IMG/VR virus record: IMGVR_UViG_3300006802_000575
Span: 1 to 23,823 of that record
From: a virus
Direction: 5' to 3' (one strand)
Length of the DNA stretch: 23,823 nt
Positions within the stretch are counted from its first letter, which is position 1, and each line of letters starts with the position of its first letter. Shown piece after piece: positions 2,632 to 23,823 of the stretch. The notes under the pieces were generated by a model. That model ran no database searches and was not told the DNA's origin. It worked only from the letters and a program-made list of their open reading frames with translations. A program made the translations under genes and the position numbers.

Positions 2632-3123
2632 ATGGGAAGTTATAAAACCAATAAACAAGTATTAAAAAAATTAACTGTTGAAGAAGCACAAGCCTTTATT
2701 CCGGTTACTATGGAAAATTCTGATGAGTTAGAAAATGCTTATTTTTATACTATGGTACCTATGGGTAATGGTTGGGATGAGATAAATTATTATACTAATC
2801 GACCTGTTCAACATTGGAGAACAGGACCTTATAATGGTTGGATTTATATTTTGTCTAATAGAACAATGCCTGGTCTATTTAAAATAGGACATACTAAAAA
2901 TAATCCTGAGGATCGTGCTAAAGAAATTTCACGTGCAACTGGTGTCCCTATTCCGTTTGAAATTGAATGGGCATTTAATTGTTATGATTCTGATATGTTA
3001 GAGAAAGAAATTCATAGAGCTCTAGACTCGTTTAGATATACATCAAATAAAGAATTTTTTGAAATATCTTTAAATGAGGCAAAAGAAACTATAAGAAAGC
3101 TTGGCTCTGCATATAGGAGTTAG
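2632..3123 (+). CDS. T5orf172 / MUG113 (GIY-YIG superfamily) domain protein
   Basis: Residues about 66-160 form a T5orf172-type domain, a GIY-YIG relative common in phages. They start GWIYILSNRTMPGLFKIG, followed by R (ERA.E/DRAKEISRATG), then an E.EIH.AL helix and an end NKEFFEIS. The Y-I-L and K-I-G strands replace the GIY and YIG motifs, and the arginine in DRAKEIS and glutamate in EKEIH take the catalytic-type positions. The first 65 residues are a separate, unrecognised N-terminal part rich in polar residues. Unlike the gene at 342 it has no NUMOD repeats, so a homing role is not shown; a nuclease or DNA-binding role is inferred. It starts 62 bases after the DUF932 gene, and an element of the recurrent motif follows its stop directly. 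Confidence 0.75.
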   Translation: MGSYKTNKQVLKKLTVEEAQAFIPVTMENSDELENAYFYTMVPMGNGWDEINYYTNRPVQHWRTGPYNGWIYILSNRTMPGLFKIGHTKNNPEDRAKEISRATGVPIPFEIEWAFNCYDSDMLEKEIHRALDSFRYTSNKEFFEISLNEAKETIRKLGSAYRS

Positions 3124-3346: not shown

Positions 3347-3419
<73 letters not shown>

Positions 3420-3518
3420 CCCGGATTCATATAAATCGAGGCAACTCTTTAGGTAGAAATATATGGATAAACAACCCGTCACGGTATGCCTAAGGGTAGG
3501 AGTGAACTGAGGAGAAAT

Positions 3519-3586
3519 AGTCAGGTGGCGTAAGGTAACGCCTCATTATTGTAGATGAGAGATACAGTTCGGAGCGGTCCTGACTA
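3519..3586 (+). tRNA. Degenerate tRNA-like element sharing its acceptor stem with 166-250
   Basis: The 68-nt unit has the same acceptor stem as the element at 166 (AGTCAGG/CCTGACT), the same next bases TGGCG and the same 3' flank ACAAA. It shows a D arm GCG TAAGGTAA CGC and a stem CTCAT/ATGAG. The anticodon loop has 8 bases (TATTGTAG) and the T arm does not pair (CAGTTCGGAGCGG), so it does not meet the normal cloverleaf. It may be a pseudo-tRNA or a tRNA-like RNA. Confidence 0.35.
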
Positions 3587-3591
3587 CAAAT

Positions 3592-3663
3592 TGCGGGATA
3601 GAGCAGTGGTAGCTCGCTAGGCTCATAACCTAGAGGTCATAGGTTCGAGTCCTATTCCCGCTA
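3592..3663 (+). tRNA. Initiator tRNA-fMet (anticodon CAT)
   Basis: This is a complete 72-nt cloverleaf: TGCGGGA/TCCCGCT with a T-T mismatch at the first pair, D stem GAGC/GCTC, anticodon stem CTAGG/CCTAG with loop CTCATAA, and T arm ATAGG TTCGAGT CCTAT. The unpaired 1-72 position and the A11-T24 pair are the hallmarks of bacterial initiator tRNA, against elongator Met or Ile. It has two rather than three G-C pairs next to the loop (AGG instead of GGG), a departure from the usual initiator pattern. Confidence 0.88.
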
Positions 3664-3788
3664 CACTAGCCCTAAGTACACGGGATCGAAAAGCAGTCGT
3701 GGCATACCGTAAGATCTGCTCGCTTAATTGCTCCTAATCGTTAGTAGGCACAGTTGACAACTCTGGAGGCGATACAAAAGTTGTAATT
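3664..3788 (+). other. Structured tRNA spacer without a recognisable gene
   Basis: No tRNA T-arm signature and no open frame is visible in this 125-nt spacer. It holds several possible hairpins: AGCAG/CTGCT (3692-3696 with 3716-3720), CTAA/TTAG around 3734-3744, and ACAACT/AGTTGT (3757-3762 with 3779-3784). It could be a small phage RNA, like the non-tRNA stable RNAs in the T4 tRNA cluster, or merely a processing spacer. Confidence 0.25.
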
Positions 3789-3873
3789 GGAGATTTGGCA
3801 GAGCGGTCGAATGCGGCAGTCTTGAAAACTGTTGAAGGTAATACTTCCCAAGGTTCGAATCCTTGAGTCTCCG
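3789..3873 (+). tRNA. tRNA-Ser (anticodon TGA)
   Basis: This is a complete 85-nt class II cloverleaf: acceptor GGAGATT/AGTCTCC with discriminator G (the usual serine base), anticodon stem GCAGT/ACTGT with loop CTTGAAA (anticodon TGA), a long variable arm, and T arm CAAGG TTCGAAT CCTTG. It reads the TCA and other TCN codons abundant in the window. Confidence 0.95.
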
Positions 3874-3969
3874 CACCTTAATACCGATTCGGGTTTGACG
3901 GTCAAGTGGGCCCTGCGACTATGACTTAGTAATAAGTAATTAGACAAAACGTCATTAAATATCCATCAC

Positions 3970-3993
3970 GTTAGATGGCATCGGTGATCTAAC
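3970..3993 (+). other. Hairpin in the spacer before tRNA-Gln
   Basis: GTTAGAT (3970-3976) pairs perfectly with ATCTAAC (3987-3993) around a 10-base loop, ending 5 bases before tRNA-Gln. No T run follows, so a processing element is more likely than a terminator. The spacer 3874-3998 otherwise shows no gene. Confidence 0.35.
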
Positions 3994-3998
3994 ATTAT

Positions 3999-4069
3999 TA
4001 CCCTTTCGTCTAATGGCAGGACAATTGGTTTTGGTCCAATTAATCGAGGTTCGAGTCCTTGAGGGGTAA
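3999..4069 (+). tRNA. tRNA-Gln (anticodon TTG)
   Basis: This is a complete 71-nt cloverleaf: acceptor TACCCTT/AGGGGTA, D stem GTCT/GGAC, anticodon stem ATTGG/CCAAT with loop TTTTGGT (anticodon TTG), T arm CGAGG TTCGAGT CCTTG and discriminator A. It reads CAA, the dominant Gln codon here. Confidence 0.93.
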
Positions 4070-4076
4070 CATAATT

Positions 4077-4148
4077 GCTCGGTTCGTCTAGGGGTTAGGA
4101 CAGGAGATTTTCATTCTTCAAACAGGGGTTCGATTCCCCTACCGAGTA
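4077..4148 (+). tRNA. tRNA-Glu (anticodon TTC)
   Basis: This is a complete 72-nt cloverleaf: acceptor GCTCGGT/ACCGAGT with a G-T first pair, D stem GTCT/GGAC, anticodon stem GGAGA/TCTTC with loop TTTTCAT (anticodon TTC), and T arm AGGGG TTCGATT CCCCT. It reads GAA, the dominant Glu codon in these genes. Confidence 0.93.
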
Positions 4149-4150
4149 CA

Positions 4151-4215: not shown

Positions 4216-6105
4216 ATGAAAAAAATCCTTTTTTTCCTATTTTTCCTTACCTCTGTAATCTCAGTAAGTGCTAAAACATTACCTGCTCCTGGAACTGGAG
4301 TTTATGTATTAATTGATACTAACTATACTGTAAGTACTTCTTTAAATCCTACAACTACTGCTAGCTTATATTATACTAATAGTACTGCTACTTTAGTTAC
4401 AGGTATGCAGTTTAGAGTATTTTATGATAAGGTAGCATTTAATGGTGCTGCTCCTACAGTCGCTTTAAAATATCCTAGTACCGATCAAAATCTTCAATAC
4501 AACGTTAATACGACTGATGGTTATATTACTATAACCTTGGTTTATACTGGTTCTAACGCTACTTTTAATTACGTTAATAGCGAATTAGTAGCTATCACAT
4601 TTACACACGCTATTGCTTCTACATTTAATAGTTTAGCTAGTATTTCTCCTTTAACTGTAACTGGTGTTCAAACATTTCCTGCTTTTGCTTCTAAAAATAC
4701 AGGTATGGACACAACATTAAATTTATATAGTTATGGTGGTAATTTTTTAAGACCTACATTCTTATTCACTTCTACATTTACTAATGTAACAGGTACAGGA
4801 GCTAAAAATGTTACTATTAAATTATCTAAAAAACCTAAAACTGGATCTACTTGGACTACAATTGGAACTTATACTTCTGATTTAGATGGTATTGTATCTG
4901 TTAATCCGGTTATTGACACTACATTTTGGGATATTAAGTTTGCAGTTCAAGGTGATACAATGAATGTAGGTAAAATTATTTCAGTAGCCGATGCTCAAAA
5001 AGTAAACCAATTCGTATTAGGCACAGCTACTCCTTCAGGATTTGATTTCTATACAGCCGATGTTAATAACTCAAATACTATCTCAATATCAGACGTTTAT
5101 TCTATATTTGGTAGAATCGCAGGCCGATTCTCAGTATGGCCTAATAACACTCCAGATGTAAGATTCTTTACAGCAACTGAATATAATTCAATTAATGGTT
5201 CATCTACAAGTTTAAAATCAACTATACCAGGTGTTACTAATTTTGAGTATTATATTAATGGTACTTCAGTAGTAACTTATTATATTGCTGGTTTAGGAGA
5301 TGCTAATGGTACTGGTTTTAAAATGGCTAGATTAGTTCCTATCCAAATATTAAACCCAAATAACGCTCCTAATTATATTATAGATCAAACAGTAGAATAT
5401 TATGCTAGTTTAAATGAAATTGAAATTAATTTACCTAGTTTAAATGTTGTTGAAGGTAATTTAGTTAATATTCCAGTTAAAGTATTTACAAATGAAGATT
5501 TAGGTTCATTACAATTAGCAATGAAATATGATAAAGATTTATTAGAATTTAAAGGTTTATACACAGATGAAAAACCAATGACTTGGTTATCATTCTTAAA
5601 CGCTAATGATGGTATTGTAGAATGGGGTGGTATAGACATGTCTAATAATAAATTTAACTTAAAAAATAATGAACAAGTTGTTACATTACAATTTTTAGCT
5701 AAAAAACCTAAAGATGAGTGGTCAGCGAGTCCTTTATATGTATCACAAAAATATGTAGGTAATGCTAATGCTTCTGATTTAAATATTAGGCCTACAGATG
5801 GTAGAATTCAAATTCAAAGAGCAATGAATACAGTTGCCTTTAATCCAAATGAAGCTACTATAACTGTATTTCCTAACCCAACAGGTGGTTTAGTTACAGT
5901 ACAATTCAATATACCTAAAGATGGTATTACAACAGTTGCTATTGTAGATATGCAAGGTAATGTTAGAAGAGAAATATTAAGCGGCAAAGTACCTGCAGGA
6001 GCTTATCAGTACGCTGTTAATTTAGATACTATGGCTCCAGGAATGTACTTAGCAGTATTAGAAAACAATGGAAAGGTTATATCAAATAAAACAATTTTAA
6101 ACTAA
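4216..6105 (+). CDS. Type IX secretion cargo with cohesin-like and dockerin-like modules
   Basis: This protein would be exported across the inner membrane, then across the outer membrane by the host type IX secretion system, and anchored or released at the cell surface. It has a signal peptide (1-19, cut after SVSA); a cohesin-like beta domain (about 28-150) with MQFRVFYD; a beta domain (175-245); a dockerin-like pair of helices, VADAQKVNQFVLG (257-269) and ADVNNSNTISISDVYSIFGR (281-300); a linker; a second cohesin-like domain (about 400-535) with SLQLAMKYDKDLLEFKG; and a T9SS type A sorting domain (about 546-629) with VFPNPTGG, G-NV and a final KTILN. The family assignment of the C-terminus (TIGR04183-like) is strong; the cohesin and dockerin calls are by pattern. 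It opens the cassette before the lysis genes. No catalytic domain is visible, so adhesion or scaffolding is inferred. The sorting domain points to a T9SS-bearing Bacteroidota host. Confidence 0.82.
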   Translation: MKKILFFLFFLTSVISVSAKTLPAPGTGVYVLIDTNYTVSTSLNPTTTASLYYTNSTATLVTGMQFRVFYDKVAFNGAAPTVALKYPSTDQNLQYNVNTTDGYITITLVYTGSNATFNYVNSELVAITFTHAIASTFNSLASISPLTVTGVQTFPAFASKNTGMDTTLNLYSYGGNFLRPTFLFTSTFTNVTGTGAKNVTIKLSKKPKTGSTWTTIGTYTSDLDGIVSVNPVIDTTFWDIKFAVQGDTMNVGKIISVADAQKVNQFVLGTATPSGFDFYTADVNNSNTISISDVYSIFGRIAGRFSVWPNNTPDVRFFTATEYNSINGSSTSLKSTIPGVTNFEYYINGTSVVTYYIAGLGDANGTGFKMARLVPIQILNPNNAPNYIIDQTVEYYASLNEIEINLPSLNVVEGNLVNIPVKVFTNEDLGSLQLAMKYDKDLLEFKGLYTDEKPMTWLSFLNANDGIVEWGGIDMSNNKFNLKNNEQVVTLQFLAKKPKDEWSASPLYVSQKYVGNANASDLNIRPTDGRIQIQRAMNTVAFNPNEATITVFPNPTGGLVTVQFNIPKDGITTVAIVDMQGNVRREILSGKVPAGAYQYAVNLDTMAPGMYLAVLENNGKVISNKTILN

Positions 6106-6115
6106 TAAATTAAAC

Positions 6116-6469
6116 ATGGCAAAATTAAAAGAAATCCTAGGATTAGGAGAAACAGAATTCAAGAAAGTAGATGATAAAAATCGTTTCTACTTTATGTTAC
6201 AACAAATGCAAACTAACCGTTGGAAAATTACAGGTATTGTATTATTTTTATTTTTCTTTATTATCTTTGGAATTAACATGGCTGTATTTTTAAATGTTTC
6301 TATTCAAGAGTCTTGGAAAGAAATGTTACTTATCCTTTTAGGTGCCTTTGTAGGTAACTTAAATAAAGTAGTAGACTACTGGTTTAACTCAGAAGATAGA
6401 GACAAAATGTTAATCCAAAAAGTAGACGAAGAAGACGGAAAATCATTATCAAACACTATAACTCAATAA
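6116..6469 (+). CDS. Two-TM membrane protein, holin-like
   Basis: The 117-residue protein has a cytoplasmic N-terminal part (1-34), two hydrophobic segments (about 37-60, ITGIVLFLFFFIIFGINMAV, and about 69-85, EMLLILLGAFVGNL), and a charged tail that starts VVDYWFNSEDRDKM. Two membrane segments joined by a short loop with a charged C-terminus match many phage holins, and a short LLLGAFVG helix followed by a YWF motif is common in them. It lies 10 bases after the T9SS cargo and 4 bases before the next membrane protein, in the same run as the M15 endolysin. Holin is inferred from topology and context. It could instead be an inner-membrane part of the secretion cassette. Confidence 0.6.
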   Translation: MAKLKEILGLGETEFKKVDDKNRFYFMLQQMQTNRWKITGIVLFLFFFIIFGINMAVFLNVSIQESWKEMLLILLGAFVGNLNKVVDYWFNSEDRDKMLIQKVDEEDGKSLSNTITQ

Positions 6470-6473
6470 TAAT

Positions 6474-6764
6474 ATGTCAGAAGAAGAAACACAAGAATCA
6501 ACCTGGACAGGATTGAAGAAAACAATCATTGGAACCTTAGCCACTGTAGTTACAGCAGGTGGCGCTTGGATTGGTACAACTTTGTTTGGTGGTGAAGAGG
6601 CAGCTCCAGCTCCTGTTCAAGCAGCACCTACAATTAATATTACTCAACAAGCAGCTCCAGCAGCAGTACCTGTTAATAACACTACTATCATTCATGAGAA
6701 GACAGTAGAAAAAGCAGCTCCTGCTCCTAAAGAAGAACCTAAAAAAGAAGAACAACCTTGGTAA
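6474..6764 (+). CDS. Single-TM protein with an Ala/Pro-rich periplasmic tail, unknown
   Basis: The 96-residue protein has an acidic N-terminus, one membrane segment (about 17-38, TIIGTLATVVTAGGAWIG) and then a low-complexity region of Ala, Pro, Gln and Val ending in KEEPKKEEQPW. The layout resembles a short TonB-like or spanin-like periplasmic linker: an anchor and an extended, Pro-rich arm. No TonB C-terminal fold is present. It overlaps the CsgG-like gene by one base (TAATG), so the two are probably made together. An inner-membrane spanin role beside a holin-like gene, or an energy or anchoring link for the pore next door, are both possible. The function is unknown. Confidence 0.6.
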   Translation: MSEEETQESTWTGLKKTIIGTLATVVTAGGAWIGTTLFGGEEAAPAPVQAAPTINITQQAAPAAVPVNNTTIIHEKTVEKAAPAPKEEPKKEEQPW

Positions 6765-7516
6765 TGAAAAGTTTTTGGAATAAATACAAACACTTCATTA
6801 TTACAGTATTAGGATTAATGCTACTCACTACATTAGCTATGAACGCTAATGCTCAAGTGGGTAGCGTTAAAACTGAAAAATATCAGGCTGACTTTGAAAA
6901 GAAACAATCTATTGAATTAGTTGCTGATTATAATGGTCCTGTTATTCCTATTCAGATCTTAAAAATTGGAATTAATGAAGAACTATTCGAGATGTATCCT
7001 GAATTAAAGGATAAGCGAGTAGGTTTAGGTGTTACTAATATTGTACTTGAATATTTAGAATATACTAATCGTTTTGAATTTACAGAAGATAAATTAGAAA
7101 TCAAAGAAAAAATGATTGCTCAATTTAAAGCTTCTAATAAAGGATTTACAGAAAATAAAATAGACGGTAAAGGTAAAATTAAGTTAGCCCGTTACTTTGT
7201 TTATATTGAAGTATATGATTTTTCAGTAGCTGAAAATGAAATATTTGACATTCAAAAAGGTAAAAGCTATTCTCGTATAGATCAAACAACTACATTAGGT
7301 TTACAAGTTAGATTTGTAGACGCTCAATCAGGAGAAGTAATTGTTGGGTCTGGTTTAGGAGAAGCTGTTACTGTTAAAGAATCTACTATGTTAGGTAATA
7401 TTGATGAAGTTAAATTTAATCAATCAACAATTGGTATTACTACTAAAAAATCACTTGAAACCGCATCATCTCGTATTGTGAGTAAACTTATTAAAAAAGG
7501 TGTATTTCCACAATGA
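6764..7516 (+). CDS. CsgG-family outer-membrane secretion protein
   Basis: CsgG proteins form the nonameric outer-membrane channel that exports curli subunits. From the ATG at 6764 the protein is 250 residues (a TTG six bases earlier is less likely because the ATG overlaps the previous stop as TAATG). Signal peptide 1-30 ends AMNANA. The CsgG-like body shows the early strand-helix part with KRVGLGVTNIVLEYLEYTNR (84-103), a grown-strand region ARYFVYIEVYDF (142-153), the strand TLGLQVRFVDAQSGEVIV (177-194), GLGEA (197-201) and a long C-terminal helix ending IVSKLIKKG. Length and order fit the family. Curli CsgG is a lipoprotein, but there is no cysteine at the cleavage site here, so it may be soluble in the periplasm or anchored differently. 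It overlaps the next gene by ATGA. No CsgA-like repeat subunit is visible nearby. Confidence 0.75.
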   Translation: MKSFWNKYKHFIITVLGLMLLTTLAMNANAQVGSVKTEKYQADFEKKQSIELVADYNGPVIPIQILKIGINEELFEMYPELKDKRVGLGVTNIVLEYLEYTNRFEFTEDKLEIKEKMIAQFKASNKGFTENKIDGKGKIKLARYFVYIEVYDFSVAENEIFDIQKGKSYSRIDQTTTLGLQVRFVDAQSGEVIVGSGLGEAVTVKESTMLGNIDEVKFNQSTIGITTKKSLETASSRIVSKLIKKGVFPQ

Positions 7517-8754
7517 AAAAATTTATAGTACTATTAGTTTTATTACTGCCCTTAGCTGTATTAGGCCAAAGTACTGTAAACTATTCATATAGTGATCCTT
7601 GTACTGGTAAAGTAAAAAATCTTACTTTTCAAGATAATCAAACTATTACTGTTAATTATTTAGGTTATATTCAAGCTTTTGATTTTAATCAAATTAATAA
7701 TGGTGAACTTGAGACTTGGATTAATGGAGTAGCAAGACAAAATACTTCTAGCCCGTGTGCCGCTGCTACTACTGTTGTTACTACTGCAACTAATTTAGCT
7801 ATAACTAATAATATTATATCTACTTTAACTAATGTCACCTCAGTGGCTACATCTGTAGGTTCAAGTTTAGCCTCAGCTATTCCTATGCCTTCAACTCCAT
7901 CATCTCCTTCTTCTACACCTTCATCTAGTACACCTTCAAGTAAAAAATTAGAAGGAGGTGAAACAAACGATAATGCAACAGAAGAATCTACACCTACTAC
8001 CACAACTACTGAAGGTGGATCAGATAATACAGGAGGATCAATTAGTAATTCAGTTGAAGGCACATCAAGTGAAGGAGGAAACTCAGGTGGAGGTGGTGGA
8101 AAAAGTACAGCTAAAGCTAAAGAAGCTAAAACTAATACTGGTAGTTTAATTGGATCAGGTGATATTGTTGTAACTAATAATAGAAATGATAATACAAATA
8201 ACTTAAGAATGACAGCTAGTATGACTAAGTCAAACTATAAAAATACATTTGCTAAAGGTTTCTTATTTAATTTTACTACTCAACTTAATAACTCTAACCT
8301 TACATTTTATACTGCTTCTACTAAGAAAAAATCTACACTTATATTTGCTAATTCAAGTTTAGTAAATAAAGACTATGATATATTTAATACTACTACAGCT
8401 ATAGAATCTTATCGATTTGGTAAGTTTTCAGCTATGGGAGGAGTTAATTTTACTTTAGGAAAAATAGGTACTAAAGGATTTCAAAATTTATCATCAGTTG
8501 CAGGAGGTTTCTATTTATTCCCGGTGAATAAGAATATAACAGGTAATTTTTTATTATTAAGTGTTTATTCTCCATTTACTCAATTTTATGATGGTAGATG
8601 GTGGAATAGTGGTTTATTGTTAGTACCGTTTAGTTCTTGGGATTTTAAAGTAACTAAAACATTTAAATTTAATATTAGTTTCTCAGGAGTATATGAATTA
8701 AATAAAAGTATGTTAAATTACCAGATATTAACTGGTGGAAAAATAATGCTATGA
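7513..8754 (+). CDS. Secreted protein with Ser/Thr/Gly linker and probable outer-membrane beta-barrel
   Basis: The 413-residue protein has a signal peptide (1-18, ending LAVLG) and a small N-terminal beta domain with two cysteines (C30, C82). Next comes a long low-complexity region (about 125-215) of Pro, Ser, Thr, Gly and Glu with a GGGGG run. The C-terminal part (about 230-413) has alternating hydrophobic and polar strands, rich in aromatic residues, such as KFSAMGGVNFTLGKIG and FKFNISFSGVYEL, as in a small outer-membrane barrel. It overlaps the CsgG-like gene by ATGA and the next gene by ATGA, so production is likely coupled. I recognise no named family; it is not an evident CsgE or CsgF. 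A role as partner, anchor or cargo of the CsgG-like channel is inferred from order alone. Confidence 0.6.
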   Translation: MKKFIVLLVLLLPLAVLGQSTVNYSYSDPCTGKVKNLTFQDNQTITVNYLGYIQAFDFNQINNGELETWINGVARQNTSSPCAAATTVVTTATNLAITNNIISTLTNVTSVATSVGSSLASAIPMPSTPSSPSSTPSSSTPSSKKLEGGETNDNATEESTPTTTTTEGGSDNTGGSISNSVEGTSSEGGNSGGGGGKSTAKAKEAKTNTGSLIGSGDIVVTNNRNDNTNNLRMTASMTKSNYKNTFAKGFLFNFTTQLNNSNLTFYTASTKKKSTLIFANSSLVNKDYDIFNTTTAIESYRFGKFSAMGGVNFTLGKIGTKGFQNLSSVAGGFYLFPVNKNITGNFLLLSVYSPFTQFYDGRWWNSGLLLVPFSSWDFKVTKTFKFNISFSGVYELNKSMLNYQILTGGKIML

Positions 8755-10007
8755 GATATTTGCTAATATTACTATTATTACCTTTAAATTTATTAGCACA
8801 AAATTTTTCATATTCAGGATATGTTTATAATGCTGATAATACAGGGGCACTTAATGTTCCTATAAAGTTGTATGCTAGAACATCTAATGTAGCGGCGGTA
8901 GTTCAAAACTCTGAACAATTTGGAGTGTCTAATGGTTCAGCTTGGTTAACTAAAAATACATATAGTGGTACTCCAAATAATAGCACAACATATAACTATA
9001 GTACAACTAATGCTTTTACAATCACTACATCAGCAGGATCAGCTACTATAGCTCCATTTACTTCTAATATCCCTGCTAATAGAAATAGAGGTACATCTGT
9101 TTTATTTTCATCACTTAATTCAGATGAAGGTTCAGTAATTATAACATTTCCTTCAGGATTTACTCCTTCTTTTTTAGGCACTACTTATTCTAGTGGTCAT
9201 ATAAATACTAATTCATGGTTCACATTTGGAACTAATAGTAGTTCAGGATATAGTGGTACTGCTTCAAATCCTAATGCACCCACACTGCATATAGGATCTG
9301 TAAGTAATAGTACTACAGATAATAATATGTCTTATACTAGTACAGAATCTTACACTGATCCATATTGGGGAGATGTTTTTAGAGTAAGATATGAAGGTAA
9401 TTCTAATTATAGTCAACAAGGTATTAACACTATTTATGACTTATATTTTATAAAAAATCAACCTAATACCCAATTAGTTGTATGGAGACAATTTACAACA
9501 GATGGTTCATCTACCTCAGTAAGTGGGTCACCTCCAGGACCTTGGACTTTAAATACTACATCTATTACTAATTCAACAGGTTATTATTCTTTTAATACAA
9601 GTTTAAATATTTCATCTTATGAATTTTATATTCAAATAGATGTACCTAGTCCTATATCTAATTTAGATAATAATGATATAATTAATACTCTTAAAGTTAT
9701 TAATGGTACTATTCCATTTAATAGTTCTTTTTATTATTTAAATGATGTAAATGGAGATGGAAAAGTTACTGTGTCTGATGCTTATTATATTGGAGCTAAA
9801 AAACAAGGAAGATTTACAACATGGGTAGGAACTTTTACTTCTCGACTATTTACTCCTACAGAATATTCAACAATTAAATCTAATACTTCAAATCTAAAAC
9901 CGACTTATCCCGGCGTATCTTCAATTACTATCTCTAATCCCACAAGTGGCGGTAGTAGTAATTACTATATTATAGCTCCGGGTTATAGCACTAATACAAC
10001 ATTTTAA
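8751..10007 (+). CDS. Secreted beta-rich protein ending in a dockerin-like module
   Basis: The 418-residue protein has a signal peptide (1-16, ending NLLA) and a carboxypeptidase-regulatory or Ig-like start (18-45, YSGYVYNADNTGALNVPIKL). A large beta-rich, Ser/Thr/Asn-rich ectodomain (about 85-300) includes a W-rich section with VVWRQF. The C-terminus has a dockerin-like pair: DNNDIINTLKVINGT (306-320) and NDVNGDGKVTVSDAYYIG (331-348), the latter with the Ca-binding DxNxDGxxxxxD spacing. The part after it (GRF.TW, then LFTPTEY, LKPTYPGV) repeats the same order as the T9SS cargo at 4216, so the two proteins share a module of about 80 residues. It lacks a T9SS sorting domain, so it may reach the surface by the neighbouring CsgG-like channel or by docking. 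Adhesion or assembly is inferred; no enzyme motif is seen. Confidence 0.65.
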   Translation: MRYLLILLLLPLNLLAQNFSYSGYVYNADNTGALNVPIKLYARTSNVAAVVQNSEQFGVSNGSAWLTKNTYSGTPNNSTTYNYSTTNAFTITTSAGSATIAPFTSNIPANRNRGTSVLFSSLNSDEGSVIITFPSGFTPSFLGTTYSSGHINTNSWFTFGTNSSSGYSGTASNPNAPTLHIGSVSNSTTDNNMSYTSTESYTDPYWGDVFRVRYEGNSNYSQQGINTIYDLYFIKNQPNTQLVVWRQFTTDGSSTSVSGSPPGPWTLNTTSITNSTGYYSFNTSLNISSYEFYIQIDVPSPISNLDNNDIINTLKVINGTIPFNSSFYYLNDVNGDGKVTVSDAYYIGAKKQGRFTTWVGTFTSRLFTPTEYSTIKSNTSNLKPTYPGVSSITISNPTSGGSSNYYIIAPGYSTNTTF

Positions 10008-10009
10008 AC

Positions 10010-10462
10010 ATGAAACACCTACTAATCTTTTTATTCTTATTATTACCGTTTACTTTATTAGCAAACGATTGTGTTTACGTTAATCAAATAACTGTAAATA
10101 AAAAATTTAAAGAATTAAACAGCAGAAACATTAAATTTGGTATAAAACAAATTACAGAGGAATTACTATCAGAAAGATATTGTCTGGCGGACTCTTCTAA
10201 CGCTGTTGATATAGAAGTATATTCTATAGGAGCCCCTAAAACCACCATTCGTATTATAGGTGCCTCGTCAATATCTCAAGTTACTCAAATTAGTTTAAAA
10301 GTAACTTATAAAGGAGTAGTATATGAAGGTTTAGGAGAAGCTGAAACTGATGTTAGATCTATGTTTATTGAATTAGAAAATAATGAAGTACCATTTAACA
10401 ACACTACTATATCAATTGCTTTAAAAAGAGCACTTCAAAACGCTATACAAAGGTTACCTTAA
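10010..10462 (+). CDS. Small periplasmic protein resembling the C-terminal part of the CsgG-like protein
   Basis: The 150-residue protein has a signal peptide (1-18, ending FTLLA) and a mature part with alternating strands and helices. Its second half (about 93-148) runs ISLKVTYKGVVYEGLGEA, then EVPFNNTTISIALKRALQNA. This matches by eye the CsgG-like protein at 6764 from LGLQVRFVDAQSGEV through GLGEA to EVKFNQSTIGITTKKSLETA, with similar spacing. It therefore looks like a shortened paralogue without the full channel-forming part. Cysteines at 21 and 58 could form a disulfide. It starts 3 bases after the dockerin-like protein and ends 36 bases before the endolysin. A periplasmic adaptor or accessory to the channel is inferred. 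Confidence 0.6.
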   Translation: MKHLLIFLFLLLPFTLLANDCVYVNQITVNKKFKELNSRNIKFGIKQITEELLSERYCLADSSNAVDIEVYSIGAPKTTIRIIGASSISQVTQISLKVTYKGVVYEGLGEAETDVRSMFIELENNEVPFNNTTISIALKRALQNAIQRLP

Positions 10463-10497: not shown

Positions 10498-10968
10498 ATG
10501 CAATTATCAAAGTATTTTACACTAGCTGAATTAACTCCTTCGGGAACAGCAAAACGTTTAGGTATTTCAAACAATCCAACTCCTGAACACTTAGAATGTT
10601 TAAAAGGATTAGCGGTTAACGTATTAGACAAAGTAAGAGAACATTTTGGAAAACCAATTTGGGTATCTTCAGGTTACCGATCTAAAGCGTTAAACGAGGT
10701 TACTCCTGGTTCTAGTGCTACATCACAACACTGTACAGGCGAAGCTGCTGACTTGGATCAAGACGGTAGAGGTACAGGTGTAACTAATAAAATGGTGTTT
10801 GATTATATTAAAGATCATTTAAATTTTGATCAATTAATTTATGAGTACGGTACTGATGCTAATCCTGATTGGGTTCATGTTAGCTGGGAATCTACAGGAA
10901 AACAAAGAAAACAAGTATTACGTTGTACTAGAGTAAACGGTAAACCAGTTTACACACCATACAAGTAA
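10498..10968 (+). CDS. Peptidase M15 family endolysin
   Basis: This is a zinc D-Ala-type peptidase (M15_3 group) that would cleave peptidoglycan cross-links at lysis. Nearly the whole 156-residue protein is the domain: a start SKYFTLAELTPSGTA, R61 in SSGYRS, zinc ligands H78 and D85 in SQHCTGEAADLD, catalytic-type E116 in DQLIYEY, and the last ligand H127 in DWVHVSW. All key residues are present. There is no signal peptide, so it needs a holin or membrane change to reach the cell wall; the two-TM protein at 6116 is the nearest candidate. The leader is A-rich (ctaaaatcaaaaaatt). This gene gives the best-defined function in the cassette and fits late expression. Confidence 0.92.
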   Translation: MQLSKYFTLAELTPSGTAKRLGISNNPTPEHLECLKGLAVNVLDKVREHFGKPIWVSSGYRSKALNEVTPGSSATSQHCTGEAADLDQDGRGTGVTNKMVFDYIKDHLNFDQLIYEYGTDANPDWVHVSWESTGKQRKQVLRCTRVNGKPVYTPYK

Positions 10969-19860: not shown

Positions 19861-20213
19861 TGGAACAAGTAAATTTAAATAAAACTGTTTTTTTAAAGGA
19901 TCAATATGAAAAAGTTATTGATACTTCATTCACTCAACTAGTTCAGCCTGCTGCTACTAGTTCAGTTGTTCCTCCTTCTATCTCAGTAGCTGAATTTTTT
20001 ACTAATTATCAAACTTTATTTTTTGAAATACCTAAATATGGTAATATAAATTCACATGAATATTTAATTAAAACAAGTCAAGCTTACGCTGGTGATTTTA
20101 ATAATGATGATACTATTCAAGCATTAATTGAAGAAATAACATCATTAAGACAAGAAAATTTGACTTTACAAGAACAAATATTAAATACCACTACAGCTAG
20201 CATTAATCAATAA
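19860..20213 (+). CDS. Small structural protein with C-terminal coiled coil, unknown
   Basis: The 117-residue protein has a beta-like N-terminal part (MEQVNLNKTVFLKDQYEKVI), a Pro/Ser hinge (SSVVPPSISV) and a C-terminal coiled coil (about 83-108, TIQALIEEITSLRQENLTLQ). It overlaps the gene before and the gene after by one base each. An adaptor that trimerises and joins the flanking large structural proteins is plausible from this layout. No family is recognised, and there is no signal peptide or membrane segment. Confidence 0.65.
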   Translation: MEQVNLNKTVFLKDQYEKVIDTSFTQLVQPAATSSVVPPSISVAEFFTNYQTLFFEIPKYGNINSHEYLIKTSQAYAGDFNNDDTIQALIEEITSLRQENLTLQEQILNTTTASINQ

Positions 20214-20434
20214 TGAGTAAAATAGTTAATATACAACCAGTTAATCCTATAACATTTGAATATCAAACATATTCACCTCAGGATGAATCTTTAATATCTA
20301 GTTTTGAAGTCACTAATAATTTTAATGTCTCTTCAAGTTATATAGAATATTTTATTTATGATTTAAATAATACTATTTATATAGTAATGAACTTGGATAT
20401 AATGGTTACTCATTTCAAGGAGCAAATGTATTAA
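20213..20434 (+). CDS. 5' part of a giant baseplate/tail wedge gene, before an apparent frameshift
   Basis: The frame starting at ATG 20213 (overlapping the previous stop as TAATG) reads a beta-rich start, with TFEYQTYSPQDESLISSFEV and SSSYIEYFIYDLNN, but then enters an out-of-frame stretch and stops at 20434. At about 20376 the sense clearly continues in the -1 frame with LYSNELGYNGYSF, which stays open to the window end. Adding a single T to the TTT run at 20376-20378 would join the two frames as NNTILYSNE. A one-base deletion (natural or an assembly error) is therefore the simplest reading, and this should be annotated as one gene with the following entry. Confidence 0.62.
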   Translation: MSKIVNIQPVNPITFEYQTYSPQDESLISSFEVTNNFNVSSSYIEYFIYDLNNTIYIVMNLDIMVTHFKEQMY

Positions 20435-23400
20435 CTATTGATCCCCAAGCCGATTTAGAAACTCAAGGATACACAGAAGGACAATATTATACAGTTTATA
20501 ATTTTTTAAATCCATTATTATCTTCTAGTGCTCTTAATAGATACTATATTGATCAAATTAGTTCTAATAGGACAGAAATTAGATTAAACACTACTCAAAT
20601 ACCTAATATTGATGTTGTTAGTTCTTCATTAGATTTACAACTTCAAATTAGTCAATCTTTTGGAGGTTATAAAGATTTTTATTTAGATTTTGGATCAAAT
20701 CAACTTATTATCGCTAATAATGTTTTATTAGATAATAGTAATCCAAATGATCCTACAGTATTAATTAAATTATACGACCCACTTCCTTTAAATTTTGATT
20801 TACAATCTCAGTGTTGGGTAGTAGAAACAATAACTGAACCTTTAGCTTATCAAATTGAAATAACTCAAGTATTTCAACCGTTAGATGAGTTTATACAATT
20901 ACGTGGTCCTAATACTAATTTAAATATTAGTGATCAAATTAATAATTCAACAGATTATGTTAATTATTCTTCATTAAGCGCTACTACATCAGTTAATAAT
21001 TCATCAAGTTTAAAATATCAATTAAATAGTTTACTTGCTGAAAAAGGAATTGAAATTAATATTGATTATAATTATTTTAGAAATTTTTGTAATTTTTCTT
21101 CAGCACAAACTCGTTTAGAAAATTTTTACTACAAACTAGTATTAATTGAACAATACAGTGTTAGTAGTAGTTATACTTCTGGTGCTACTAATTATTACAC
21201 ATCAGGTAGTCAAACAATTTGGGATAATAAAATAAATGATATCATAACTAATTTTGATGGTTATGAATATTTCTTATATTTTGAATCAGGAAGTAATTCA
21301 TGGCCTAAATCAAATTCTACTCCTCCTTACAATAATTTATCTACACAAGACTCAGCTTCACAAGCTTGGTTAAATGTTAAATTAGTAGAAGCAGAAGAGT
21401 ATGATTTAGAAAACAGTAATAACTTAATTTATAGTATCCCTAGTTATCTATTAGACGACCCAGCAAACGCTCAATATGAATTATTTATTGAGATGATAGG
21501 TCAATATTTTGATGATATTTGGGTTTATATTAAAGATGTCACTAACAAATATAACGCTGATAATAGATTAAATTATGGTGTATCTAAAGACTTAGTAGCT
21601 CAAATATTAAGAGATTTAGGTGTTAAAATTTACCAAAATAATTTTTCAGTAGATAACTTATATACTGCTTTCTTAGGACTAACTAATTCAGGAAGTTTAT
21701 ATAACATTCCTAATATTACAAATACATTACCTGCACCTACAGGTTTAGAGTACATTAACCTTATAGTGACCGCCTCTAACACAGCATCTCTAGTAGGTAC
21801 GGACGATGTTAATAAAGAAACTTATAAGCGTATTTACCACAATTTACCATTCTTATTAAAGAAAAAAGGTTCATATGAGGGTTTAAGAGCATTAATTACT
21901 ACTTACGGTATTCCTGAAACTATATTAAGTATAAGTGAATATGGTGGTAAAGATAAAAATTCTAATACTTGGGATTACTTTAAACAAATTTATAACTATA
22001 ATTTAATTACGGGTTCCGGAGAAATAAGTACTCCATGGAATTTAAACCCAAGTTGGTCAGTAGCTGTAGATTCATCTAATCAAACACCTTCAACATTACA
22101 ATTTAGATTTCAAACTCAAGGTTTACCTACTTCTAATATTCCATATTCTCAAAGTTTATGGCAATTAAGTAATATAGGAGCTTTAGTATTAACTTATACA
22201 GGATCAGGATATACTTCAGGTTCATATAGTGGATCAGCTATTGATCCTTATTATCAATATGCTAAACTAGATTATTATCCAAATAAAACAGTTGGTATAA
22301 CTAATACAGCTAGTGTTTATTTACCTTTCTTTGATGGAAATTGGTGGTCAGTAATGTTAACTAGATCAGGTAGTACTTACACTTTATATGCTGGTAATAA
22401 AATTTATCAAGGATTTGAAGGAAATACAATCGGATTTATTGCATCAGGTTCTACAATTTCAAGTAGCATCAATTGGGATACAGTAGGAAATAGTACATTT
22501 TATTCTCCTGTAACTATAAATAGTAAAACATATAACTCATTTACTGGTTCATTACAAGAAATAAGATATTATACTACTCCTATATCAGTTAATAGATTTG
22601 AAGACTATGTAATGAATCCTCAATCTATCGAATCAGAAGATACACCTAATCAATTAGCTTTTAGAGCATCATTAGGTGGCGAATTATATACTGCTTCTTT
22701 ATCGATACATCCTAAAGTAACTGGATCGTGGATTGCAACATCTTCATTTGATGGTGGTAATAGCAGTTGGACATCTAGTTTAACTCCATTATTTACTTCT
22801 AATACAGAATATGCTTACTATAACCAACCAGCAGTAGGTATTCAAAATCCTATTACTGATAAGATTAAAGTAGTAAATATGATAATGCCTACAGGCAGTA
22901 CTTTATCTCCTTATATTTCAATACAACAAAATCCTCCAGTATCACAAAGTGTTACTAAAGATATTGATTATGTTGAAGTAGCATTTTCTCCTCAGGATGA
23001 AATCAATGTTGATATTTACGATCAATTAGGTTATTTTAATATTGGAGAATATATTGGTGATCCAAGATTAGTACCTACTAAAGAAGAATCATATCCTCCT
23101 TTAGATAAATTAAGAGATGCTTACTTTGAAAAATATACTAGTAACTATAATGAATGGGATTATATAAGACTTATTAAGTTCTTTGATAACTCATTATTTA
23201 AAATGTTACAAGATTGGGTTCCTGCTAGAACAAGTTTAGCAGCCGGTGTTGTAGTAAAACAACATATTTTAGAACGTAATAAATATCCTTTACCTCAACC
23301 TAATATCACCTCATCAATTGCCTTTATAGGTAGTGGATCAACTAATATTCCTTATTTAACTGAGAATATATTAGTTACTGGTTCTTCTATTGATATAGTA

Positions 23401-23823
23401 GATGTTATAGGAAGTGAAGGTGGATCAATTCAAAATTCTGAAACAATAATATATCCTTCAAATAGAGTATTAAATTATTATGTCTCGGCTTCTTACAGTA
23501 ATGAAAGTGTATTTACAGCAGGCTCAGAATATAATTTAGATACTACATATAGTGAATTCTCAGATAGTTTAGGATATTTTAATCCTACTACAGGAATATA
23601 TACAGCAGGAAGTGAATTTGAAGTACCTATTACTTTTATTATATCAGCATCAATTACTGGTTCTGGAGGTAATACTGGATATGATTATATTAATTTATAT
23701 ACAAATACAGGAACAGGAAATACATTAGTAGCAGTTGGTACTTCTAGTTTATTATCTCCTAGTTCAATGATTACTAATGCTGATTTAAATTTTTCATACA
23801 CTACAACACCAGTACAAGGTCAA
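20383..23823 (+). CDS. Giant baseplate wedge/tail protein with LamG-like domain (gp7/gpI-like place), 3' partial
   Basis: This frame is open for 1147 codons to the window end and has no ATG near its beginning, so it is the continuation of the gene starting at 20213. Residues encoded at about 21430-21950 resemble the gpI-type wedge region: ELFIEMIGQYFDDIWVYIKD, DLVAQILRDLGVKIY, then RIYHNLPFLLKKKGSYEGLR and ALITTYGIPE. The stretch about 22030-22570 is LamG/concanavalin-like (NWWSVMLTRSGSTYTLYAG and FTGSLQEIRYY). Near 23000-23280 comes a striking run with FNIGEYIGDPRLVP, WDYIRLIKFFDNSLFKMLQD and VVVKQHILERNKYP. Its place after gp6 suits a gp7 role, joining the wedges; the LamG-like part may bind sugars or other virion proteins. 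The exact function is inferred. Confidence 0.62.

Follow-up and report, generated by a model that had tools for sequence, protein, structure and literature searches.

In a phage contig of 23,823 nucleotides (IMG/VR virus record IMGVR_UViG_3300006802_000575; this whole stretch is called the window here), the gene at positions 4216–6105 encodes a protein whose sequence gives good support to its being a cargo of the host type IX secretion system (T9SS). An earlier note on this DNA had considered this gene alone; we found it to be part of a conserved seven-gene module that includes a CsgG-like pore and often lies beside an endolysin gene. Phages that encode T9SS cargo have been observed before, and what is added here is the conserved module around it.

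A phage protein with a T9SS type A sorting domain

The cargo protein and its recognizable parts are as follows:

4216–6105, plus strand: T9SS cargo or scaffold protein, 629 amino acids, complete open reading frame
4216–4275, plus strand: Sec signal peptide, approximately residues 1–20, by inspection
4966–5133, plus strand: dockerin-like repeat, approximately residues 251–306, from alignment A8
5425–5814, plus strand: cohesin domain, residues 404–533, PF00963
5866–6099, plus strand: T9SS type A sorting domain, TIGR04183, 43.3 bits in a genome-level search

From the N-terminus, the protein thus consists of a signal peptide, a cohesin-like N domain, a transthyretin-like stretch, the dockerin-like repeat, the cohesin and the type A C-terminal domain (CTD). 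Judging by eye, the N-terminus (MKKILFFLFFLTSVISVSA) has all the marks of a Sec signal peptide, as the earlier note had read it. A crude hydrophobicity count agrees: once 9 dockerin-protein matches had been taken out, 89 distinct cargo relatives were left, and about 86 of them have a hydrophobic core at the N-terminus. The multidomain character that had been proposed was likewise borne out, and the cohesin, unnamed until now, can be added to it: PF00963 matched residues 404–533 with 27.2 bits (cut-off 24.1), and the best Foldseek matches of an AF2 model of modest confidence (57.9) were cohesins (E = 7.7e-9), so that Pfam and the predicted fold both support this assignment.

The sorting domain itself, previously recognized from motifs, was detected above the curated cut-off by two profiles, namely TIGR04183 (37.8 bits against the cargo protein, cut-off 23; residues 551–628 of 629, profile positions 1–71 of 72) and PF18962 (36.8 bits, cut-off 27; residues 551–627). 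The domain is of type A, and the type B model TIGR04131, with which a comparison had also been proposed, was absent from the matches listed for the cargo. The sequence of the domain shows the motifs VFPNPTGG and QGNV and ends in KTILN. Among close relatives, the CTD had a pN/pS of 0.2, indicating purifying selection. In a distant clade it changes fastest of the large domains of the cargo (pN/pS = 0.375), and the motif residues are nonetheless kept. Of the related viral records searched, 25/25 in one set and 45/46 in another (70/71 in total) gave a TIGR04183 match above its cut-off, with one copy per record (two in one record) that nearly always lay at the module described below, and in the single exception (G050, locus L106) the tail is still visible by eye. 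Because the tail is so consistently kept and its pN/pS is low, it is more than a chance resemblance.

The cargo gene belongs to a conserved module

Downstream of the cargo gene, the window encodes the following proteins:

6116–6469, plus strand: TM1, two-TM inner-membrane protein, conserved more strongly than any other part of the module (73–93% identical)
6474–6764, plus strand: TM2, one-TM protein with an Ala/Pro-rich periplasmic tail, from sequence and conserved position
6758–7516, plus strand: CsgG-like secretion-pore protein, by fold match, with the ATG start probably at 6764
7513–8754, plus strand: secreted protein with an N domain, a long Ser/Thr/Gly linker and a barrel-like C-terminal region, from alignment A3
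8751–10007, plus strand: exported dockerin-like protein without a CTD and with a swapped middle domain, from Pfam matches and alignment
10010–10462, plus strand: E10, small exported (periplasmic) protein without a family match, with a signal peptide seen by inspection and a conserved place in the module
10498–10968, plus strand: M15 peptidase endolysin (PF08291, 3e-17; phrog_894 endolysin, 5e-35), the directly downstream neighbor and not a constant part of the module

The order cargo, TM1, TM2, CsgG-like, barrel-like, dockerin-like, E10 is kept in some 50 contigs of the near family, mostly at 45–50% cargo identity, and also in most of 78 more distant loci, among which one rearranged order occurs (cargo, CsgG-like, TM1, barrel-like, E10, dockerin-like). 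By inspection, five of the seven proteins carry signal peptides, and the C-terminal region of the 7513–8754 protein looks like an outer-membrane beta-barrel.

The identity of the putative pore came from its fold. A model of modest confidence (pLDDT 67.6), built from an input alignment of the window and IMG/VR sequences only, matched CsgG (4uv3) in Foldseek with E = 5.6e-8 and a probability of 1.00, all top PDB matches being CsgG, and structural alignment gave Z = 11.9 over 152–172 residues. At the sequence level, the family profile retrieved nothing from the PDB, and PF03783 matched no member above its cut-off, giving weak matches in 6 of 25 members (best E = 0.018) and none in that of the window. 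The 6758–7516 protein is thus predicted to have the CsgG fold, and we call it CsgG-like rather than CsgG because the sequence match stays below the PF03783 cut-off. Most of its relatives have a lipobox; the proteins of the window and of locus L007 do not, that of the window having a plain signal peptide. Among the window module proteins that were scanned against Pfam, none matched curli components (CsgF, curlin repeats). The possibility that E10 is a CsgG paralogue was rejected (hhalign probability 2.3%).

The C-terminus of the 8751–10007 protein is homologous to cargo residues 240–370 (alignment A8). We term it dockerin-like only, since the Pfam gathering score is not reached and the two Ca-binding repeats are not seen: PF00404 gave 14.8 bits against a cut-off of 22.9 in the window member, which has one clear Ca-binding-like loop, and Dockerin_1 was weakly detected in 9 of 20 members (best E = 0.0012). 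The middle of this protein is exchanged between phages, being a Lectin_C domain in 14 of 25 members, PA14 in 2 and GEVED in 2, with an unassigned type in others, including the window; close relatives with swapped middles share 25–34% identity there and 65–89% in the flanks. Diversification of the lectin by a DGR was considered and rejected, as no reverse transcriptase (PF00078) was found in 35 records in which the control did match.

The contig, its cultured relative and the spread of the family

The concern that the contig might be host DNA is answered by T4-type baseplate genes (gp25- and gp6-like) and by gene-by-gene synteny with a cultured phage. Judging from these genes, the contig is that of a myophage syntenic with Flavobacterium phage immuto (MW353175): the window genes at 11.6–23.8 kb follow the same order as the immuto baseplate region, with 26–52% identity over most genes. 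Immuto infects Flavobacterium sp. LMO8, in keeping with the Bacteroidota-type host that had been predicted for the window phage. The genus Flavobacterium is known to have a T9SS.

Immuto is the only annotated isolate with the cargo family, and it carries the same module minus TM1, its genes being annotated as hypothetical, lectin and cohesin proteins. It differs in that its cargo is split in two: gene 14 encodes the protein up to and including the dockerin-like part, whereas gene 15 has its own signal peptide, the cohesin and the CTD (TIGR04183, 46.5 bits). Cohesin–dockerin binding would be the simplest way for the two halves to stay together. The immuto module also lies elsewhere, among replication genes and with the lectin gene first, whereas that of the window is upstream of the baseplate genes; because its position differs though the baseplate region is otherwise syntenic, the module appears to move as a unit.

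Several further features of the window were recorded. Five tRNA genes (Thr, Met, Ser, Gln, Glu; 3347–4149), mostly with long spacers, form an array directly upstream of the cargo gene, and a sixth tRNA-like match is at 166–250. A homing-endonuclease-like gene (342–1022) and a T5orf172-domain gene (2632–3123) near the module are possible agents of its mobility. At 20213–23823, a large homologue of immuto gene 162 occupies two reading frames with the change near 20400; either the assembly is wrong there or the frameshift is real.

Cargo relatives are encoded in 56 IMG/VR contigs, CsgG-like relatives in at least 238 and the module in more than 200, on contigs of up to 434 kb; these records were drawn from overlapping metagenomes and include many near-duplicates, so the counts are not independent. 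A scan of 84,980 species genomes returned one full cargo relative, on a 16.5 kb contig (L059) in a MAG labelled Sphingomonadaceae, and this module-carrying contig is probably a misbinned phage contig. The cargo family is thus essentially phage-only. In three contigs, the cargo gene has an in-frame TGA at the same place, the junction of the dockerin-like and cohesin parts (L112:6359–6361, L113:1743–1745 and L115:6139–6141). A true gene split was rejected there, given that the downstream part lacks a signal peptide and that TGA rarely serves as a stop in these contigs; on sequence grounds, readthrough or recoding seems likelier.

A proposed surface complex and its possible link to lysis

From the conserved module we infer a surface complex. 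The reading we favor, with reasonable though far from full confidence, is that the cargo, exported by the host T9SS, serves as the outer scaffold of a phage trans-envelope complex that displays a lectin and probably acts late. Sec would first export the cargo into the periplasm, where the host translocon would recognize the type A CTD and deliver the protein to the cell surface or release it, as with other type A cargo. The cohesin domain or domains of the cargo could then hold dockerin-like modules, either its own or that of the 8751–10007 partner. This partner lacks a T9SS tail and would need another route across the outer membrane, possibly the CsgG-like channel. Through the interchangeable domain of the partner (C-type lectin, PA14, GEVED or other), the complex would then expose a sugar-binding module at the surface of the infected cell. 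Least certain is what the complex is for: in our estimate, lectin display serving adhesion or exclusion has about an even chance, somewhat likelier than direct opening of the outer membrane, which we would put at roughly one chance in three.

The genomic position of the module bears on when it would act. Three families of peptidoglycan hydrolase were counted: M15, GH19 and phrog_3000, of which phrog_3000 qualifies solely because it matches an endolysin family. A gene of one of these families is no more than 3 kb away from the module in 64 of 84 loci and, with coordinates read by eye, in 21 of the 31 long records, most of which have one or two such genes; the other 10 long records, immuto included, have none nearby. 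When the largest related group is counted once, roughly half of the long records still show this adjacency, compared to a rough expectation of less than one in ten. Since the module lies near lysis genes and encodes two small inner-membrane proteins, it would probably act late, around lysis.

This neighborhood also speaks for a different explanation, in which the module is itself a lysis device, with TM1 as the holin and with the CsgG-like pore, the barrel protein and the T9SS-exported proteins opening or weakening the outer membrane in place of spanins. In some contigs, a TM1 gene without the rest of the module adjoins a hydrolase gene, and the CsgG pore of methylophage Melnitz has been proposed to act in lysis timing (PMC9004378). 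However, such a device would need neither the shuffling of lectin and PA14 domains nor a cohesin scaffold, TM1 matches no holin family, other contigs have TM1 with no adjoining hydrolase, and the immuto module is far from the GH19-type hydrolase of that phage. We regard TM1 as resembling a holin only in its size, topology and position, having set aside the idea that it is a proven holin, and consider the lysis explanation unlikely. In a separate observation, L222:6001–6525 and similar loci, from phages without the T9SS module, encode TM1 fused to a TM2-like Pro-rich tail.

Comparison with known systems

The earlier note knew of no described role for phage-encoded T9SS cargo, but one had already been proposed: 'Cryophage' encodes T9SS cargo for which secretion of surface proteins, with possible effects on inter-strain competition or superinfection, was put forward (Bellas et al. 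2020, PMC7468147), and T9SS sorting domains were reported beside and within crAss-like BACON ORFs (de Jonge et al. 2019, PMC6949934). Compared by description, Cryophage shares with our phages genes with type A sorting domains and the proposed use of the host system, but has three variable cargo proteins (an endoglucanase, a GH39 and a PA14 protein) instead of one conserved module scaffold. The crAss-like proteins share the sorting domain, whereas they are BACON-repeat proteins encoded near the head section, with no CsgG or cohesin module described. Our literature search found no paper joining CsgG, phage and T9SS. As to whether the phages might carry T9SS machinery themselves, a search for SprA was empty in 35 phage records and gave no positive-control match either.

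The Cryophage proposal resembles a further account of the module, that an anchored lectin complex masks or occupies receptor glycans and so remodels the surface against superinfection or phage re-adsorption. A surface cargo and swapped glycan-binding domains would suit this purpose, but exclusion benefits lytic phages in some settings only, and proximity to lysis genes suggests, by position, that expression would be late; we see about one chance in four that the account is right.

Pelagimyophages and Melnitz have been described as encoding CsgG, for which the roles put forward include sibling capture, uptake and lysis (PMC7029224, PMC9004378). Like the window phage, they have a CsgG pore with small membrane proteins nearby; unlike it, they have true CsgF and curlin repeats and no T9SS tail. 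A comparable set is encoded by pelagiphage HTVC008M (CsgG, CsgF and a secreted protein with PA14 and curlin repeats), and when the module profiles were compared with its proteins, no homology was detected for the other module parts; a pore combined with a ligand-binding domain is thus seen again there, with remaining parts that show no sequence homology. The HTVC008M protein in question, AGE60352 (L140 10638–11963), is annotated as hypothetical, and its curlin repeats contrast with PMC7029224, which lists CsgA/CsgB-type subunits as missing. Sibling capture, proposed for the pelagimyophage curli genes (PMC7029224), would have the displayed lectin aggregate neighboring hosts before the burst, and that the PA14 and curlin-repeat protein adjoins CsgG in HTVC008M fits it. 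Against it, Melnitz showed no clumping (PMC9004378), albeit with a curli-type operon for which no T9SS module is described, and we hold this outcome to be improbable, to the same degree as protection from superinfection.

With Bacteroidota type A cargo, the phage protein shares a signal peptide and a C-terminal TIGR04183 domain, and it differs in being a viral gene with phage-specific upstream domains. That it is a captured host gene or virion decoration, a structural protein or neutral passenger with the CTD as a bacterial leftover, is very improbable, for although Bacteroidota proteins often contain cohesin, dockerin-like and CTD modules, the operon is conserved, the tail is kept and shows purifying selection, almost no bacterial copies were found in the genome scan, and the signal peptides on five module proteins argue against a virion protein.

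Implications

Phage T9SS cargo has been noted in only a few reports and appears here as a conserved trait of a large phage group that includes jumbo phages; being conserved across such a group, it can hardly be a passenger. It may be, at slightly less than even likelihood in our judgment, that a widespread phage machine made of a CsgG-like pore, inner-membrane proteins and cohesin–dockerin parts recruits the host T9SS and assembles an exchangeable, lysis-linked surface lectin; this would be a new type of phage envelope system, with counterparts in the curli-bearing pelagiphages. Immuto on Flavobacterium offers a cultured system for asking why lytic phages place proteins outside their host, and it also bears on the function of phage CsgG pores and on how Bacteroidota phages breach the outer membrane.
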